Source: a virus
Virus record (IMG/VR): IMGVR_UViG_3300025096_000096
Coordinates: 1 to 27,790 of that record
Length of the DNA stretch: 27,790 nt
Direction: 5' to 3' (one strand)
In this document: positions 15,335-22,530 of the stretch, in pieces
Layout of the letters: each line of letters begins with the position of its first letter
How positions within the stretch are numbered: position 1 is the first letter of the stretch
Position numbers and translations under genes: made by a program
The notes under the pieces: model-generated
Told to the model about the DNA's origin: nothing
The model's input: only the letters and a program-made list of their open reading frames with translations
Database searches by the model: none

Positions 15335-15997
15335 TTATCCCCAACGCAATCCAAACTTATCAGCACAAACTTTCCCATAACCTACTTCAATAGATCGGTC
15401 ATCGGACAGTTGTTTATGACAAGCAAAACAGTTGCCAGTAAGTTTTCCATATTCACTTGCGACTTTCTCAGGATCACTAACCAATCTATTTAATAGATCG
15501 ATTAGTTTTTCCTGAACCTCTTTGCCATCTTTTGATAAGTAAAGATCGCCATCGGTTTCGATACGCCCAAAGTAAATATTTTCATATCCCCACTTCCCGT
15601 TGCTGAGAAATAATTGTCCTTTGTGCCTAGACTTGTTTGATGCTTTGGATATTTTTATATCTTGGTCATCAAGTCTTAACCACAATTTAGGAAATGATTT
15701 ATTCTTTGGTGATACCGCTCGTCTGAGCAGAGAATAAACACCATTTATATTATGTAGTTTTTTCTCAGCTTTTTCTTGCTTTGGATTCTGAACTTGATCA
15801 ACAAGTTTCAATACCCAATGCCATTGTTTGTCAGACAATTCACCTCTCTTTTCAAAGTGCTTGAAAAGACTTTCAGCGAAGCCAGTAGTTTTTCCATAAA
15901 ACTTATCGTCATCAAGAAATCCTTTTAGCTTGTGAATATTTTCCCTTTTGATTTTTACAATCCATTCTGTCCATAAACCACCGATTACCGCACTCAT
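15335..15997 (-). CDS. DUF6011-like protein with C-terminal cysteine motif
   Basis: 220 aa. The end, KLTGNCFACHKQLSDDRSIEVGYGKVCADKFGLRW, has the TGxCxxC-L-D-SI-G-G-VCA pattern of DUF6011-type zinc-binding domains. An earlier block TTGFAESLFKHFEKRGELSDKQWHWVLKLVDQ is a helical segment often found before it in phage proteins. The middle (KLWLRLDDQDIKISKASNKS, then GQLFLSNG) looks beta-rich and may bind nucleic acid. Cellular role unknown. The start overlaps the stop of the 93-aa gene (ATGA). Confidence 0.8.
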   Translation of the reverse strand: MSAVIGGLWTEWIVKIKRENIHKLKGFLDDDKFYGKTTGFAESLFKHFEKRGELSDKQWHWVLKLVDQVQNPKQEKAEKKLHNINGVYSLLRRAVSPKNKSFPKLWLRLDDQDIKISKASNKSRHKGQLFLSNGKWGYENIYFGRIETDGDLYLSKDGKEVQEKLIDLLNRLVSDPEKVASEYGKLTGNCFACHKQLSDDRSIEVGYGKVCADKFGLRWG

Positions 15998-16275
15998 GAT
16001 GGATCACCATTTTGATCAAGTTTAGTTAAACACTCAATCCTTATAGTTGGATTCCATCTGAAATCAATAACTGGTCTCATATCGGTTTCATGATAAGTAT
16101 GAGAATCATCAAATGATTTTTTACCATCTGAATTTGCCATCTCATAAGCTGAATCCCAACAATCAGTTTGAACAGTTATTTTTTTGTATAGTAAATATTC
16201 TTTCTCAAAAACATAAGTTTTTAAGTCAGATTTTGATTTATCTACATTTTCGATTGCTACTTCTTTTTCACTCAT
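15994..16275 (-). CDS. Hypothetical protein, 93 aa
   Basis: MSEKEVAIENVDKSKSDLKTYVFEKEYLLYKKITVQTDCWDSAYEMANSDG; acidic, with a beta-like strand pattern in the middle. I do not recognise the family. The leader contains a hammerhead ribozyme whose cut would leave a 5' end 54 bases before this ATG. The ribosome site is TATAGGAGATAAAATT. Confidence 0.7.
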   Translation of the reverse strand: MSEKEVAIENVDKSKSDLKTYVFEKEYLLYKKITVQTDCWDSAYEMANSDGKKSFDDSHTYHETDMRPVIDFRWNPTIRIECLTKLDQNGDPS

Positions 16276-16324: not shown

Positions 16325-16381
16325 ACCAATAGCCAATCTTGCGATTGGCTTTCATAGCATCTCAGCTAATCATCAGTTGGT
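16325..16381 (-). ncRNA. Hammerhead ribozyme, type I, overlapping the upstream stop codon
   Basis: Minus-strand reading: stem I strand ACCAA (16381-16377), CUGAUGA (16376-16370), stem II UAGC/GCUA in the 16-base block 16369-16354, GAAA (16353-16350), stem III GCCAAUC with a GCAA tetraloop and GAUUGGC (16349-16332), U (16331), A17 (16330), then UUGGU (16329-16325) pairing back to ACCAA. All core bases fit the hammerhead consensus, with H17 being A rather than the more frequent C. The stop codon of the 82-aa gene (TAG, 16368-16366) lies in stem II, so the core is also read as codons for Thr-Asp-Asp. The predicted cut is between 16330 and 16329. Confidence 0.88.
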
Positions 16382-16614
16382 TTTAGTTTGTAGATTTCTG
16401 CACCTTCAGGATTTTCCTGAATGCAATCCTCTATGACTTCATTGAGAAATCTTTTTATCTCACTCAACAAAAAAGGCTTAAAGTCTTTTTTATCTTCAGG
16501 CATAAAAACATGACCGCCTGTTCTAGCTACATACATAATGTAGTCTAAGGCAGTCTCTAGTTTTTCAATGTCGTCATGGTTTACTGCTACTTCTTTTAAT
16601 GATTGTTCACCCAT
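16366..16614 (-). CDS. Hypothetical protein, 82 aa
   Basis: MGEQSLKEVAVNHDDIEKLETALDYIMYVARTGGHVFMPEDKKDFKPFLLSEIKRFLNEVIED; helical and acidic, no known family. The ribosome site is TTAGGAGAATTAAT. The leader has the covarying GGCGAA element (16638-16682). The last codons form part of a hammerhead ribozyme. Confidence 0.7.
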   Translation of the reverse strand: MGEQSLKEVAVNHDDIEKLETALDYIMYVARTGGHVFMPEDKKDFKPFLLSEIKRFLNEVIEDCIQENPEGAEIYKLKPTDD

Positions 16615-16637
16615 ATTAATTCTCCTAATTTGAGTTT

Positions 16638-16682
16638 GGGATAATTCCCATTAATAACACCAAATGATGCTATTAAGGCGAA
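16638..16682 (-). promoter_or_regulatory. Leader element B (UUCGCC...AUUAAUGGG)
   Basis: Minus strand: UUCGCC-UUAAUA, a 14-base loop, UAUUAA... wait-free arms UUAAUA (16656-16651 partner 16676-16671), then UGGGAAUUAUCCC and the SD. The outer pairing CC/GG continues the stem. A near-identical element with a different but still pairing stem is at 21860-21907. Confidence 0.55.
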
Positions 16683-16729
16683 TCTCACAAAAAATGGCTT
16701 CACCATTGCTCGTCTAATGCAAAGTTAGA

Positions 16730-16764
16730 GGGGTAGTAAGGGTATGACATACCCTTACTACCCC
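16730..16764 (-). other. Strong 17-bp inverted repeat after the vWA gene
   Basis: GGGGTAGTAAGGGTATG and its exact reverse complement are separated by one base, so the RNA forms a very stable hairpin. It lies 18 bases after the vWA-gene stop. There is no T-tract on the minus strand; it may stop exonucleases or act as a processing signal. Confidence 0.7.
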
Positions 16765-16781
16765 CCCTTTTTGCACCAATC

Positions 16782-18215
16782 CTAACTAGCTAAATCTAAG
16801 TCTGCTGTTAGGCAATGGGGAGGTAGATGGATTACTTCCCCAAACTCAGATTCAGTCACACCCCAATCCATACGAGTGGTTGCCCATAGGACTGGAATAT
16901 CAGGCTCATGTTTTGCTTTTACTGGGTAAAATTCTCCATCAGTAAAAACAATTAGACCCTGTATGTCAGCAACATCATCGGTATAGTTATTCACCAATTC
17001 AAAGATCGGAGTTAATTCGGTTCCACCGCTACCCCTCACTTGCAAGTCTAATGACTCACCCGCAGAGATATCGAACTCATCCCAATAATTCCCTTCTTTG
17101 TCATGGTGAACTATGGTGCTACACCAACAAACTTTGACCTTCTCAATGTTGCATTGCTCAATCAATCCTTGTACCTGACTGGCGAAACCATCCAAGTAAT
17201 AACGAGTTGATCCTGAGCAATCAATGGCGATTGCCAAAGTGCCACCCATAACTGAACTGACCCTACTCGGAAGATAGTTTCCTTTCTTGTAAGTAGAATC
17301 TTTCCATATATGGTTTCTATGTGGTCGATTCCAAGATGTTTGATCGGGGAAAACGCTGACCAACCAATCCTGAATTTTCTCAAGATAGTTGGCAGTTTCC
17401 ACTCCAATCTCATTCAATCGTTCACTGAATGAGTTGTCATAACCACTACCGCAAGATCGACTCATGCTGTCAGCCAATCGGACTTTGTTAGCCAATTCTC
17501 TTTGAGCATCAATATTTTCTTGCTTGGTTAATGGTTTTCCATCTTGGCTCACTGCATCCCAAACACCACCCGCTTGGCTAGTGTTAGATGGTTTTCCATC
17601 ATTAGCATTCGCTAAATCATCACCATCTTTTTTATCACCGCCATTGCTTTGATCTTGATCATCAGAATCACCATCGGATGATCCATCGGATGATCCATCG
17701 GATGATCCATCGGATTGATCGCCATCGTCAGAAGAATTATCAGCCTGATCATTTTCTTGATCTTTCTGATCTTTTTCCTGAAGCAATATAGCGTATATTT
17801 CGTCAGCAGTTTTGCCATCATATTTGCTGTCATACAATGCATCCTTTGGCATCTTCCAATAGGATATTGCACCTGATCTATTTAACTCGCCATTGATTGC
17901 ATAATCAGTTGCGATATTCCATAACTCAGGATTCCTATCATTTCTTCTGAGATGATGTGCCCAAGTGCAATGCAACGCTTCATGCATTAGAACGAATTCC
18001 AATTCTTCATGACTCGATTCATTGACAAAGGATTCACACCAAAAGATATGAGTGCCATCGGTTGCCATTGTAGAACATACATCCTTTGAAACTTCTTTCA
18101 GAATCAAAGGAGTAATCATCGAAGCCATACCAAGATGACCCTTTTGGATGATCGAGGTTCTAGCCTTGACGATTTTGTGTTCTGCCACTTTACTGGCAGT
18201 TGTTTGCTTATCCAT
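16782..18215 (-). CDS. vWA-domain protein with N-terminal metallopeptidase-like domain (DUF2201 type)
   Basis: 477 aa. The N-terminal half has a zinc-peptidase signature HEALH (78-82) in LMHEALHCTWAHHLRR, followed by NIATDYAINGEL. A Ser/Asp/Gly-rich linker (about 155-205, with DGSSDGSSDGSSDG) leads to a von Willebrand A-like domain with the MIDAS motif DCSGST (332-337), the RGSGGTELTP block and FTDGEF. This two-part build is that of DUF2201 proteins, partners of MoxR-type ATPases encoded two genes upstream here. The pair is thought to act as a metal-dependent chaperone or remodelling machine; the phage target is unknown. The leader has a near-palindrome hairpin. Confidence 0.92.
   Translation of the reverse strand: MDKQTTASKVAEHKIVKARTSIIQKGHLGMASMITPLILKEVSKDVCSTMATDGTHIFWCESFVNESSHEELEFVLMHEALHCTWAHHLRRNDRNPELWNIATDYAINGELNRSGAISYWKMPKDALYDSKYDGKTADEIYAILLQEKDQKDQENDQADNSSDDGDQSDGSSDGSSDGSSDGDSDDQDQSNGGDKKDGDDLANANDGKPSNTSQAGGVWDAVSQDGKPLTKQENIDAQRELANKVRLADSMSRSCGSGYDNSFSERLNEIGVETANYLEKIQDWLVSVFPDQTSWNRPHRNHIWKDSTYKKGNYLPSRVSSVMGGTLAIAIDCSGSTRYYLDGFASQVQGLIEQCNIEKVKVCWCSTIVHHDKEGNYWDEFDISAGESLDLQVRGSGGTELTPIFELVNNYTDDVADIQGLIVFTDGEFYPVKAKHEPDIPVLWATTRMDWGVTESEFGEVIHLPPHCLTADLDLAS
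17671..17716. repeat. 12-bp tandem repeat in the vWA gene linker
   Basis: CCATCGGATGAT is repeated three times exactly with a partial fourth, encoding the DGSS repeats of the linker. It is prone to length change by slippage. Confidence 0.8.
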
Positions 18216-18261
18216 AATTTATCTCCTATATATAAACAAATTTTGCAGACAGAATGCCTAC

Positions 18262-18299
18262 ATCAAAACAAATATTGACTGGTCAATACTTGCTTTGAT
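18262..18299 (-). repeat. Near-palindrome copy 9 in an 18-bp RNA hairpin
   Basis: The core is 18275-18286. On the minus-strand RNA the arms pair over 18 positions with two G-U wobbles; on the plus strand those positions would be A-C mismatches. The hairpin lies in the leader of the vWA gene. Confidence 0.75.
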
Positions 18300-18345
18300 T
18301 TAAACCTTCTAAAAATATTTTTATTTTTCAGGGAGCTTAGGAATG

Positions 18346-18378
18346 TTGGTTTTGGGGAGTCTTGCGACTCCCCACCAA
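18346..18378 (-). other. GC-rich hairpin with GCAA tetraloop after the middle gene of the triad
   Basis: On the minus strand GGGGAGTC and GACTCCCC pair around GCAA, inside TTGGT/ACCAA outer arms. No T-tract follows. It begins 2 bases after the stop of the 329-aa gene, taking the place held by hammerheads in neighbouring spaces; no CUGANGA core is present here. Confidence 0.65.
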
Positions 18379-18379
18379 G

Positions 18380-19369
18380 CTAAAATAATCCTTTAGCAGT
18401 GTCAGAAACTTTGACCTTCTTTTCAGCCTGTCTCAGTTTCTTAGCTGTGGATTTCCTAGCTTTGTCATCCTTCTTGAGATTGTCTTGAGATTTTGCACCA
18501 ATGATGTCTTTTCTCAAGTCAGCTACAGTTGATCTTAGATCATCATCATCACCCAATAGATATTGATCTATTGAATCAAGCATATCTCTAAGCTCGTTAT
18601 AGCTACTATCCCTTAATGGATTCTTGGTTTTGTTTTTGGGATCAAACTTTTCCAATCCACTTGCCAATCTTTCGATGCTAGAAACAAGTTGTTTTGCAGT
18701 ATGCTTATCAGCATTCTGCTTAACAGTTTCTTCGCCTTCTTTATGATTGGCAATGATATTAGATTTGGCGACTTCAGATATTGCCACTCTAATATCTTTG
18801 TGATTGAACTCGTTTACGATTCCAATTTCATAATCGAAGATATACCTATCTCGCAGATCATCAGGATGAGGGTATTCATATTCTTTGAATAGATCACCCA
18901 ATCCAACATGATTCTGCTTGGCTTCTTCGATTTTCTTTGAGTAGTCTCGCAATATAATTTCAACCTCATCATCGAAGTTTTTCTTATATCGCTTAACTTC
19001 TTTCTCAAACGCTTCCAATTCAGTTGCGGGTAGCAATCGCCATTCGCCTTTTTTTACCTGTCGGTTTCCTGAGACATATGACTTGCCACCACCCAAAACT
19101 TTATCGTCAGCATCAATCCAAGGTAAAGTTTTCTTATAGATAACTTGATTCCTGAATTGTTTGCCAACCTGAATTGGGGGTTTAAGATATTCAGGGTCTA
19201 ATAAATGCTTAGATACTTTTACTAAATCCGAGTTGGCATTTTTAATATCTGCCAATTCATTTCTAGCACTGGTATCAGCCTTTATCCCACTATAAGTTTT
19301 TATAGTGACCTGAACTTTCACACAAGATTCTGCTAATGCAGTTTTCTTGTCATTATTTTTCTTACTCAT
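18380..19369 (-). CDS. Conserved phage protein between MoxR and vWA genes
   Basis: 329 aa. The pattern VKVQVTIKTYSGIKADTSARNEL, VKVSKHLLDPEYLKPPIQVGKQFRNQVIYKKTLPWID, WRLLPATELEAFEKEV, then LGDLFKEYEYPHPDDLRDRYIFDYEIG fits from memory a phage family (DUF3150-like, name uncertain) found beside MoxR ATPase and vWA genes. The C-terminal third is a long charged, probably coiled, region (DNLKKDDKARKSTAKKLRQAEKKVK). It may be the adaptor or substrate of the ATPase/vWA machine. Its leader holds a three-way-junction RNA with an anti-SD, then a type III hammerhead, then the SD. Confidence 0.8.
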   Translation of the reverse strand: MSKKNNDKKTALAESCVKVQVTIKTYSGIKADTSARNELADIKNANSDLVKVSKHLLDPEYLKPPIQVGKQFRNQVIYKKTLPWIDADDKVLGGGKSYVSGNRQVKKGEWRLLPATELEAFEKEVKRYKKNFDDEVEIILRDYSKKIEEAKQNHVGLGDLFKEYEYPHPDDLRDRYIFDYEIGIVNEFNHKDIRVAISEVAKSNIIANHKEGEETVKQNADKHTAKQLVSSIERLASGLEKFDPKNKTKNPLRDSSYNELRDMLDSIDQYLLGDDDDLRSTVADLRKDIIGAKSQDNLKKDDKARKSTAKKLRQAEKKVKVSDTAKGLF

Positions 19370-19384: not shown

Positions 19385-19408
19385 AGTAAAAGTTAATTAA
19401 CTGATTCA

Positions 19409-19461
19409 TAATCCTTTCGAGTAACTCATCAGGCATGACTACTAATGTCATACGAGGATTA
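19409..19461 (-). ncRNA. Hammerhead ribozyme, type III
   Basis: Minus strand: UAAUCC (19461-19456), U (19455), C17 (19454), stem I GUAUGAC and GUCAUGC with a 7-base loop (19453-19433), CUGAUGA (19432-19426), short stem II GUUACUC (19425-19419), GAAA (19418-19415), GGAUUA (19414-19409) pairing to UAAUCC. All core bases fit; stem II is minimal (one G-C pair clearly). The predicted cut between 19454 and 19453 leaves most of the ribozyme in the leader of the 329-aa gene, 84 bases before its ATG. Confidence 0.85.
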
Positions 19462-19537
19462 CACAATGGCGAATAAGGTATAGGAGAATCAAAAAAGACC
19501 CTTATCCCCTGATAAAAATCAGGTAGTGCCATTGTGT
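19461..19537 (-). ncRNA. Three-way-junction RNA presenting an anti-Shine-Dalgarno
   Basis: A perfect 10-bp outer stem (ACACAATGGC at 19461-19470 with GCCATTGTGT at 19528-19537) encloses two hairpins: CCTGAT-loop-ATCAGG (19508-19523) and an ATAAGG/CCTTAT hairpin (19473-19505). The large loop of the latter carries ATTCTCCTATA, complementary to the SD of the next gene. It lies directly upstream of the hammerhead at 19409-19461. Confidence 0.6.
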
Positions 19538-19558: not shown

Positions 19559-20647
19559 TTAAACCAAGATGTCTTGGTTTTTAATGTGCCAATCAATAAA
19601 GACCGAAGTCTCTTTGAATTTTGATTCTTTTGTTGTGAGTGCTTTGACAAACAAAACTGAATACTCTTTAGCATCAAAACGCTCTATATAAGTCAGAGCA
19701 TTTTCAAATTGCTTTGGAGTTTCAACCGCATTGATCAGAGATGCAACACTTGCATATTGCAGTTCTGTCCTTTCAGGTAGTTTTGCTGTTTTTGGACTCT
19801 TGAGAATTTTAGTTGGCGATTCCAATTCATTTTGGAATGCACAAAAAGTTTCAAACTCTCTAGCGACTGTTTCACCCAAGTAAGATTCCAACACTGGCTG
19901 TATCAGTGATCGTCTAAGATCACCAGTCAGCATTTCACTTACTTGATGCCAAATTCTTGGTGCGGGAAATCCACCCTCTTTCTTGGCATCAAATTGATGT
20001 AAGAATTGAGGTTGGAAAGTTAAGAATGCCAGTATGTCAGCATTAATATTATTCCCATATCCCCACTCTAACCACTCATTCGTATCAGGAACTAATTCCA
20101 AAGTTAAACAAGCAGATTGAAAGTGAGTCAAGATTCTTTGAGCACCCGCTCTATCGGTTGAATGATTACCCGCAAGGATAATTTTCCAACCAGTAGGCAA
20201 AACATAATCAGTGCCAATTCGACCTTCAAAAGTCAGTTGGCGAATTGTGTTTTGTAGTGCGGGAGTTGCTTGGGCTACTTCATCCAAAAACAAAAGACCT
20301 TTACTGTTTTTATCTGTAGGCAGATTATCCAGTAATGCTCTTTTCTGACTGCCAGTTTTATCATCGATATATGGCAACCCTGAAAAGTCGATTGGCTCAT
20401 ACATGGCGACCCTAAAATCAGCGAAACCAAATTCATTTTTCTTTGGCTTCACATTATAGATTGGTCGATCCTTATGATCCCTTAACAGTTTCAGTTTAGA
20501 TTTGTCAGCAATAGTCTGAGCAATCTCAAAGACTAGAGAAGATTTACCGATAGCGGGACTTCCTTTTATGAAAGGCACACTGCTCGATGCATTCTCTAAG
20601 TTATGTAAGATTACTTCGACTAGTTCACTAGCTTTTAATTTACTCAT
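19559..20647 (-). CDS. MoxR-type AAA+ ATPase
   Basis: 362 aa. Walker A GSPAIGKSS (29-37), Walker B GLLFLDEVAQA (117-127), sensor-1 region WKIILAGNHSTDRAGAQRI and following LTLELVPDTNEWLEWG are those of MoxR/CbbQ-type AAA+ ATPases. These work with vWA-domain partners to remodel or metallate target proteins; the partner is encoded two genes downstream. The start has TAGGAGAAAATT. The 163-base space before it is filled by a near-palindrome hairpin and a hammerhead. No frameshift is seen. Alternative: NorQ/CbbQ-like regulator of an unknown phage or host enzyme. Confidence 0.92.
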   Translation of the reverse strand: MSKLKASELVEVILHNLENASSSVPFIKGSPAIGKSSLVFEIAQTIADKSKLKLLRDHKDRPIYNVKPKKNEFGFADFRVAMYEPIDFSGLPYIDDKTGSQKRALLDNLPTDKNSKGLLFLDEVAQATPALQNTIRQLTFEGRIGTDYVLPTGWKIILAGNHSTDRAGAQRILTHFQSACLTLELVPDTNEWLEWGYGNNINADILAFLTFQPQFLHQFDAKKEGGFPAPRIWHQVSEMLTGDLRRSLIQPVLESYLGETVAREFETFCAFQNELESPTKILKSPKTAKLPERTELQYASVASLINAVETPKQFENALTYIERFDAKEYSVLFVKALTTKESKFKETSVFIDWHIKNQDILV

Positions 20648-20679
20648 AATTTTCTCCTATGTTATGTAAATTAGATTGG

Positions 20680-20763
20680 TGCTGATTTCGATTCTTTTGA
20701 ATCAACCTGTAAACAGGTTCTGCTTTCGCAGTCATCAGTAGGAATTACATTCCTAGATCAGCA
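20680..20763 (-). ncRNA. Hammerhead ribozyme, type III, with stem II replaced by three hairpins
   Basis: Minus strand: stem III strand UGCUGAU (20763-20757), C17 (20756), stem I UAGGAAU-GUA-AUUCCUA (20755-20739), CUGAUGA (20738-20732), an insert of three back-to-back hairpins (CUGC-GAAA-GCAG; AACCUG with CAGGUU; GAUUC-AAAA-GAAUC; 20731-20690), GAAA (20689-20686), UCAGCA (20685-20680) closing stem III. Core bases, stem I and stem III match the consensus; the part between CUGAUGA and GAAA is unusual since no simple stem II exists. The predicted cut is between 20756 and 20755, 108 bases before the MoxR ATG. Confidence 0.75.
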
Positions 20764-20800
20764 AGGGGTCAAATATTGACTGGTCAATATTCAACCCCTT
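20763..20800 (-). repeat. Near-palindrome copy 10 in an 18-bp RNA hairpin
   Basis: The core is 20776-20787. AAGGGG and CCCCTT flanks extend the stem to 18 pairs on the minus-strand RNA, with two wobbles (U-G, G-U). It lies just after the stop of the preceding gene (20811) and abuts the hammerhead. Confidence 0.75.
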
Positions 20801-21314: not shown

Positions 21315-21372
21315 ATCAAGACCCAACCTTTCGATTGGGTTTCGCCTGAGTTTCACAGGCTCATCAGTTGAT
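21315..21372 (-). ncRNA. Hammerhead ribozyme, type I, canonical
   Basis: Minus strand: stem I strand AUCAA (21372-21368), CUGAUGA (21367-21361), stem II GCCUG-loop-CAGGC (21360-21344), GAAA (21343-21340), stem III CCCAAUC with a GAAA tetraloop and GGUUGGG (21339-21322), U (21321), C17 (21320), UUGAU (21319-21315) pairing to AUCAA. All conserved core bases are present. The predicted cut between 21320 and 21319 is 29 bases before the ATG at 21290. It starts one base after the stop of the upstream gene. Confidence 0.93.
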
Positions 21373-21859: not shown

Positions 21860-21907
21860 GGGTTAATTCCCATTAATCACACTCGTTATGAATATGATTA
21901 AGGCGAA
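21860..21907 (-). promoter_or_regulatory. Leader element A (UUCGCC...AUUAAUGGG)
   Basis: Minus strand: UUCGCC then UUAAUCA pairing with UGAUUAA across 15 bases, then UGGGAAUUAACCC and the SD of the first operon gene. Compared with element B, the paired bases differ on both sides while pairing is kept (UUAAUCA/UGAUUAA versus UUAAUA/UAUUAA), and the flanks are nearly identical. Confidence 0.55.
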
Positions 21908-21919
21908 CTAAACTGTATT

Positions 21920-21950
21920 GCGAGAGCGAGGGGAGAAACCCCACTCTCGC
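21920..21950 (-). other. Strong GC-rich hairpin in the operon leader
   Basis: GCGAGAG and CTCTCGC with inner GGGG/CCCC form a stable stem; it has no T-tract on either strand. It divides the long leader from the element next to the first gene. Confidence 0.65.
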
Positions 21951-22377
21951 CAGTTATAAATAAATTCTTTGGACTATTCATATAGACCACGCTGATGCTC
22001 ATTACGATTTTCATCTTGGCTTACATCTATGAAGTATTTGATCAACCATTCCTAACTTAATCAGATTGATATCTTGCATAAATGAACCCCCTTTAGAGAC
22101 TCACACTTTAGGATTCCCATCCCTTGCTGTTGGCATTTGTTTCAGCCCTAGATTTAAATTGATAGTAGCGACAAATCTACAAACTCGCTTTCTCCTCTCT
22201 GCCATGTGGTTATCAGCCTGAATCGAACCACACTCCAAATTGGTCTAACATTTCTATCTGCTAGAGGACTTTCACTTCGTTGGTGTTTCAACCTTTAGGA
22301 CTCGTCCTTATCATCCTTCTGATCAGACGTTAGGTGTCTAGGAATTGACTTAAACCTAACCGATATCAAGTAAGTAA
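21951..22377 (-). ncRNA. Gene-free ~420-nt leader, probable structured RNA
   Basis: No ORF with a ribosome site is seen. Perfect inverted pairs are frequent: GTTAGGT/ACCTAAC (22329-22335, 22354-22360), AGGAC/GTCCT (22297-22308), TGTGGTT/AACCACA (22205-22232), GTTG/CAAC near 22280. A T-loop-like GGTTCGATTC occurs on the minus strand (22229-22220). It lies directly after a promoter, so it should be transcribed toward the operon. It may be a stand-alone RNA or a long regulatory leader; it fits no tRNA. Confidence 0.5.
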
Positions 22378-22405
22378 ATTATATCAAATGGGTATATTCA
22401 TACAA
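22378..22405 (-). promoter_or_regulatory. Sigma70-type promoter of the long operon
   Basis: Minus strand TTGTAT (22405-22400), a 16-bp spacer and a perfect TATAAT (22383-22378). The spacing matches the other two promoters found here. The start near 22371 would give a ~530-base leader before the first ATG at 21837. Confidence 0.65.
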
Positions 22406-22456
22406 GCATTAATATATCTAATTGATATCACTTATCCATAGATCAGAAAGTAAATA

Positions 22457-22468
22457 ATGACTGGTCAA
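22457..22468. repeat. Dispersed near-palindrome, copy 12 (one mismatch)
   Basis: ATGACTGGTCAA lies about 50 bp upstream of the operon promoter and 70 bp before the small terminase gene. It is the last copy; none was found in the packaging module to the right. Confidence 0.7.
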
Positions 22469-22530
22469 TATTAGGACTGCACAGAGGTATCATTTTGTAA
22501 TCTTGATCGGGGGGTGATGAGCATCATATA

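Follow-up and report, generated by a model that had tools for sequence, protein, structure and literature searches.

Few ribozymes have been studied as closely as the hammerhead, whose core is considered intolerant of most insertions. Twister-sister ribozymes, whose core is unrelated to that of the hammerhead, have three- and four-way junction versions and, like the form described here, exist with and without an extra arm. Type III hammerheads (RF00008) contain a CUGAUGA...GAAA core, an A15.1-U16.1 pair, H17, a closed stem I and an open stem III. Their stem II directly adjoins A9, but single-nucleotide exceptions are known. The plus-strand hammerhead of the plant viroid CChMVd tolerates an insertion between A9 and G10.1 (position 9a; De la Pena and Flores 2001, via PMC3705267). 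In this ribozyme, an extra A at that position causes a moderate loss of activity, U is better, and C and G are detrimental (PMC3705267). Perreault et al. 2011 (PMC3088659) proposed transcript processing for clustered prophage hammerheads and showed that such arrays undergo cleavage both in vitro and in E. coli. These phage and prophage hammerheads, together with RAGATH-1 (RF03152), show several hammerheads between genes of one transcript, and a U10.1-U11.1 mismatch and a very short stem II have already been described for them. In a pseudoknot-containing hammerhead (PMC11300833), the stem II side of the core is rebuilt with cleavage retained.

We analyzed a 27,790-nt stretch of viral DNA (IMG/VR record IMGVR_UViG_3300025096_000096, positions 1 to 27,790), here called the window. 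The terminases most similar to its own belong to the Pelagibacter phages HTVC027P and HTVC023P and to phages 023Pt_psg01 and DSL-LC04 (53-58% identity). The minus strand at 20763-20680 contained the complete set of type III hammerhead core nucleotides. The element was located between two minus-strand genes, in the same direction as the downstream gene and 32 nt 5' of the ATG of a gene for a 362-aa MoxR-like ATPase (Table 1). From 20763, its first half reads 5'->3' UGCUGAU-C-[UAGGAAU GUA AUUCCUA]-CUGAUGA and its second half [CUGC GAAA GCAG][AACCUG UUUA CAGGUU][GAUUC AAAA GAAUC]-GAAA-UCAGCA. The interval from A9 to G12 held exactly three hairpins (hp1, hp2, and hp3) without linkers. An earlier note on this DNA had described a hammerhead-type element with three contiguous hairpins between CUGAUGA and GAAA at 20680-20763. 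Both points were borne out, and the coordinates were right within a few bases, with the RNA on the minus strand. We assign a probability of about 0.82 to the reading of the element as a type III hammerhead belonging to an architecturally new subclass, with a two-hairpin insert at 9a, predicted to self-cleave and to process transcripts.

Table 1. Positions of the three-hairpin element, its flanks and the further hammerheads in the window.
Feature	Position	Strand	Basis
17-bp hairpin with phage-wide palindrome TTGACCAGTCAA, abutting the ribozyme on its 5' side	20763..20800	-	fold
Stem III 5' strand UGCUGAU (U16.1 = 20757)	20757..20763	-	covariation in 6/7 pairs
Predicted cleavage site, C17 (20756) / first stem I nucleotide (20755)	20755..20756	-	alignment to type III hammerheads
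Stem I, 7 bp, UAGGAAU/AUUCCUA, loop GUA	20739..20755	-	covariation in 6/7 pairs
Core CUGAUGA (C3-A9)	20732..20738	-	invariant in alignment
hp1 CUGC-GAAA-GCAG, first 9a-inserted hairpin, GNRA loop	20720..20731	-	covariation in 4/4 pairs; loops
hp2 AACCUG-UUUA-CAGGUU, second inserted hairpin	20704..20719	-	covariation in 5/6 pairs; length varies in family
hp3 GAUUC-AAAA-GAAUC, assigned as stem II (G10.1-C11.1 closing)	20690..20703	-	G-C closing 20/20; relatives' stem II
Core GAAA (G12, A13, A14, A15.1)	20686..20689	-	invariant
Stem III 3' strand AUCAGCA	20680..20686	-	fold; covariation
AGGAG ribosome-binding site of the MoxR-like ATPase gene	20654..20658	-	sequence
Gene for a 362-aa MoxR-like ATPase, leading the conserved ATPase-orf329-VWA set	19559..20647	-	tblastn to annotated phage MoxR-like ATPases; synteny
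Second hammerhead, of type I, 5' of the next gene	21315..21372	-	24.2 bits to RAGATH-1 hammerhead (E 0.016), under the gathering threshold
Third hammerhead, type III, 1-2 bp stem II, before gene 18380-19369	19407..19463	-	sequence/fold
Fourth hammerhead, type I, U.U at 10.1/11.1, before gene 15994-16275	16325..16381	-	sequence/fold

The minimum free energy (MFE) of the element was -30.6 kcal/mol (z = -5.98), and none of 200 shuffles folded equally well. The MFE structure consisted of exactly the five helices listed in Table 1, and most stem pairs had a pair probability >0.9. A comparable hammerhead descriptor, requiring at least 7 bp in stem I, at least 6 bp in stem III, and folding in the stem II region, was matched by 2 of 5265 simulated windows.

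Pattern scans, a structural descriptor, and a covariance model found the three-hairpin form in at least 29 instances on at least 25 viral contigs, with at least 20 distinct sequences. The instances are related and belong to one phage group. The 20 distinct forms were obtained from pattern scans of viral contigs and from the structural descriptor run over fetched loci. In all 20, no nucleotide between A9 and G12 was unpaired outside the three hairpins. When these inserts were shuffled 20,000 times, three contiguous, linker-free hairpins appeared once; such shuffle counts are not probabilities because the sequences are related. The hp1 loop was of the GNRA type (GAAA, GAGA, or GCAA) in 18 of 20 forms, and hp3 was closed by G-C in 20 of 20 with a mostly AAAA loop, both figures carrying a bias from the pattern searches, each of which demanded part of hp1 or hp3. 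The length of hp2 ranged from 14 to 28 nt.

Seventeen of these sequences were aligned. Standard pairs filled 95.4% of the pair cells, compared with 72.1% after shuffling. Changes on both sides were observed in 23 of 29 pairs (115 cells vs 32.5 shuffled). The covariation score was 0.681 vs 0.243 in shuffles (0/500), whereas slid structures scored at most 0.109, and all five helices contributed. The core nucleotides C3-U4-G5-A6-N7-G8-A9 and G12-A13-A14, present in the window, were invariant across the 17 forms. A15.1-U16.1 was A-U in 17 of 17, and H17, which is C in the window, was A, C, or U in the family.

The three-hairpin instances scored 74-98 bits with covariance model R1, whereas simple hammerheads scored at most 55.3 bits. 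No Rfam match was found in the window at the gathering threshold. Against Hammerhead_3 (RF00008), the window form scored 11.7 bits and the simple orthologue in L011 scored 30.6 bits (E 2.2e-5), which is likewise under the gathering score of 48.5 bits. Given this drop, homology searches, including standard Rfam searches, miss the three-hairpin form. The hp1 pattern had 14 matches in viral contigs, 13 of which folded as the three-hairpin form; its 18 matches in bacterial and archaeal genomes, which serve as a negative control, were all chance, and none had a three-hairpin fold. A first pattern scan (ACTGATGA...CGAAATCAGC) returned the window's near relatives only, with the remaining matches being chance. 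BLASTN of four three-hairpin forms against INPHARED phages gave weak partial matches or none, and the model had no match within the 34-41 kb examined of isolate relatives HTVC027P, HTVC023P, 023Pt_psg01, and DSL-LC04.

IMG/VR contigs with the same ATPase gene kept an element at the same place. Two of them (L186 and L192) had the three-hairpin form before the ATPase gene, and five (L187-L189, L190, and L191) had an ordinary type III hammerhead. Nucleotide identity in the ATPase gene was 96-98% for L187-L189, 98.8% for L186, and 82.4% for L192, so both alleles occur in close and in more distant relatives. An example of the simple form reads GCUGUA-UAGGAAUGUAAUUCCUA-CUGAUGA-UUGCGAAAGCAU-GAAACAGC. 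Its stem II covaries (UUGC/GCAU, UUCG/CGAU, and UUAC/GUAU) around a U.U pair at 10.1/11.1. Between the alleles, stem III gained one matched bp (GCUG-U / A-CAGC vs GCUG-AU / AU-CAGC). The earlier note had asked for a search for relatives and had named a lack of cleavage and of homologues keeping the core and stems as what would refute it; such homologues were found, as the orthologous hammerheads and the 20 three-hairpin versions keep both.

The insertion site was visible at the junction that follows the VWA gene. The sequence there is CUGAUGA-U-GACUC-AAAA-GAGUC-GAAA in L245 and L254, with a single U at 9a (in a wider read, ...GGAAAAUGUGUAUUUUCC-CUGAUGA-U-GACUCAAAAGAGUC-GAAACAG...). At the same junction of L246-L249, L252, L253, and L255, two hairpins replace the U, and the GACUC/GAUUC stem II is kept. 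Relatives with one inserted nucleotide and the same stem I have a stem II nearly identical to hp3. Altogether, 11 distinct ribozymes of the family had a single nucleotide at 9a, U in 10 and A in 1; these are also the nucleotides with which the CChMVd ribozyme works best. Such a single U (or A) was seen in L205, L208, L202, L201, L206, L209, L191, L245, and L254. In addition, the four forms with a 6-bp stem I and a 7-nt loop were the same four that had a 4-bp, mostly longer-looped hp3, whereas hp1 was unchanged. Loop I and hp3 changed together in 4 of 4 of these forms vs 0 of 16 others, and the four are probably one lineage. This co-variation agrees with hp3 being the partner of loop I. From the empty-site alleles, the one-nucleotide relatives, the tolerance of position 9a, and the co-variation of loop I and hp3, we conclude by sequence comparison that hp3 corresponds to stem II and that hp1 and hp2 are an insertion at 9a, between A9 and G10.1. 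The earlier note was correct that three hairpins are present; its view that they take the place of a simple stem II needs amending, as stem II is kept as hp3.

The insert is 28 nt in the window and 26-40 nt in the family, whereas that of CChMVd is one nucleotide (PMC3705267). In the window it starts with a C, a nucleotide that is detrimental at 9a of the viroid ribozyme when inserted singly, but this C is paired. Since the insert separates A9 from G10.1, stem II of the window form does not directly adjoin A9, and we filed the form as a variant rather than a canonical member of type III. In the window, loop I and the loop of hp2 seemed able to form a kissing contact; hp2 loops in the family share no loop I complement, and the contact was rejected.

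Alternatively, hp1 could be the working stem II, followed on its 3' side by hp2 and hp3 as an insertion before G12. At the same locus, L188 and L189 have a stem II, UUGC-GAAA-GCAU, nearly identical to hp1; MAFFT aligns hp1 to it, and a 4-bp hp1 with a GNRA-type loop resembles many simple stem IIs. However, the canonical G10.1-C11.1 pair is in hp3 in all 20 forms, and it is hp3 that equals stem II of the one-nucleotide relatives. The empty-site alleles L245 and L254 are without hp1 and hp2, not without hp2 and hp3, and the length change together with loop I was seen in hp3, not hp1. We consider this arrangement quite unlikely. Another proposal is that the ribozyme is dead and persists as a stable, structured leader, protecting the mRNA without cleavage. 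The strong fold directly 5' of the Shine-Dalgarno sequence (SD) would suit such a leader, but a mere leader needs no CUGAUGA, GAAA, or U16.1. The core nucleotides were invariant in all aligned forms, the bp gained in stem III between alleles was a matched one, and H17 stayed A, C, or U. A dead ribozyme is thus a very improbable explanation. The earlier note had also been reminded of a tRNA-like fold with a CCA-like ACCA end. The length of about 82 nt, several arms, and an acceptor-like terminal stem fit that picture. ARAGORN found no tRNA genes in the window, the hairpins end in tetraloops without a T-loop or anticodon arm, and ACCA is missing from most homologues; we give this idea almost no credence.

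Under our preferred reading of a hammerhead with hp3 as stem II, the core end at A9-G12, hp1, hp2, and hp3 meet in a perfect four-way junction, as there are no linkers. hp3 would stack on the A9-G12 pair in the manner of an ordinary stem II and pack its AAAA loop against loop I. hp1 and hp2 would stack on each other and form a side rod. With hp3 on the A9-G12 pair and the rod to the side, the active site would be preserved, and self-cleavage is predicted to occur 3' of C17. The rod might also make the element aptazyme-like, binding a ligand or a phage or host protein that tunes cleavage; the earlier note had suggested a sensor or protein site of this kind. The insert touches the active core, its paired, linker-free structure and the hp1 GNRA loop are kept, and the orthologous site has either the insert or a lone U, a pattern that a tunable trait might produce. 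Perreault et al. 2011 (PMC3088659) suggested regulated cleavage for some phage hammerheads. In contrast, the loop and length of hp2 vary widely (UUUA, UAGGUU, UCAUUU, and UUCG), no conserved unpaired binding pocket was seen among the family forms, and insert-free relatives occupy the same site. We regard an aptazyme-like element as unlikely. A broader suggestion, that the hp1-hp2 arm at 9a controls cleavage of the four-way-junction hammerhead by docking of the GNRA loop or by binding a phage or host factor, is a model we hold tentatively, with somewhat more confidence but still as the less probable case.

Three further hammerheads in the window are on the same strand as the three-hairpin element, each directly 5' of a gene. 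The third hammerhead of Table 1 may contain a pseudoknot between loop I (AGUA) and loop II (UACU), and the G-U wobbles at the end of its stem III are Watson-Crick pairs in L013 and L190. In relatives, hammerheads occur at the junctions of the ATPase-orf329-VWA set, and the three-hairpin form occurs at three different ones: before the ATPase gene (window, L186, and L192), between ATPase and orf329 (e.g. L244, L245, L249, and L302), and after VWA (e.g. L246, L248, and L276). A strong fold was present in the 60 nt upstream of 87% of 39 non-redundant family hammerheads, compared with 21% of control starts and 5% of shuffles. The palindrome TTGACCAGTCAA or a variant was upstream of 54% of the 39, compared with 1.9% of controls, and an SD and ATG followed within 60 nt in 32 of 39. 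L190 and L192 have an unrelated hairpin of 9-10 bp in place of the window's 17-bp one, and several three-hairpin forms located after VWA have no upstream hairpin.

As three more hammerheads in the window stand just before genes, cutting of the phage transcript is a likely role, and the four together would divide a polycistronic transcript into mRNAs of gene length. A 5'-OH and a structured leader would then mark the start of the downstream mRNA. Its upstream counterpart would terminate in the ribozyme-abutting hairpin, followed by a short tail bearing a 2',3'-cyclic phosphate, and at the three-hairpin element the 17-bp hairpin would cap the 3' end of the upstream product.

Other features of these phages were also observed. 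Eight exact copies of the palindrome TTGAC(CA)GTCAA are present in the window (3876, 5933, 11207, 13004, 14358, 15295, 18275, and 20776), along with further copies with changes. Most are in transcription orientation, some are about 10 nt 5' of an SD, and one is inside the primase-helicase gene. The palindrome is a candidate phage promoter or operator. Strong intergenic hairpins were found at junctions without a recognisable hammerhead (16610-16790 and 18205-18385). The region 21880-22530, about 650 nt without a long ORF, had no convincing Rfam match; judged from its raw MFE (-191 kcal/mol for 681 nt), it is strongly structured, and it may represent an unknown phage RNA. Tandem 12-nt repeats (CATCGGATGATC) at 17660-17731 in the DUF2201/VWA gene encode a low-complexity acidic stretch. 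In relatives (L198:2616, L205:2013, L197:9293, and L019:3858), stem III of type I hammerheads encloses a conserved 45-60 nt element with the pattern AUUAAACCAGUAUC...CUGACCCUAUA...AGGGUGU, possibly another architectural variant.

Earlier work (PMC3088659, PMC3705267) already describes phage hammerhead arrays, the U.U mismatch, pseudoknots together with a short stem II, and the insertion of one nucleotide at 9a. In the open-licence literature, we found no report of a two-hairpin insertion at 9a with a linker-free four-way junction. The accessible sections on the Perreault and RAGATH-1 hammerheads mention no hairpin insertion at 9a, whereas most junctions of the MoxR ATPase-orf329-VWA set carry one here. 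In the pseudoknot-containing hammerhead, a pseudoknot takes the place of helix II, whereas here helix II is flanked by two inserted hairpins, and type III hammerheads (RF00008) differ from the window form in its two-hairpin insert at 9a, which makes a four-way junction. Recurring in at least 20 different versions across related phages, the three-hairpin form looks like a real, previously undescribed hammerhead variant.

The recurrent, covarying two-hairpin insertion at 9a shows the extent to which the hammerhead core can be opened in nature, and it offers a ready-made site for aptazyme design. Natural pairs with and without the insert at one junction (L245/L254 vs L246-L249) make its effect on the cleavage rate directly testable. 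The arrangement of nearly one ribozyme per gene bears on what phage hammerheads do. If the hp1-hp2 arm does control cleavage, it would set the stoichiometry or timing of the processing of individual genes in one phage transcript.
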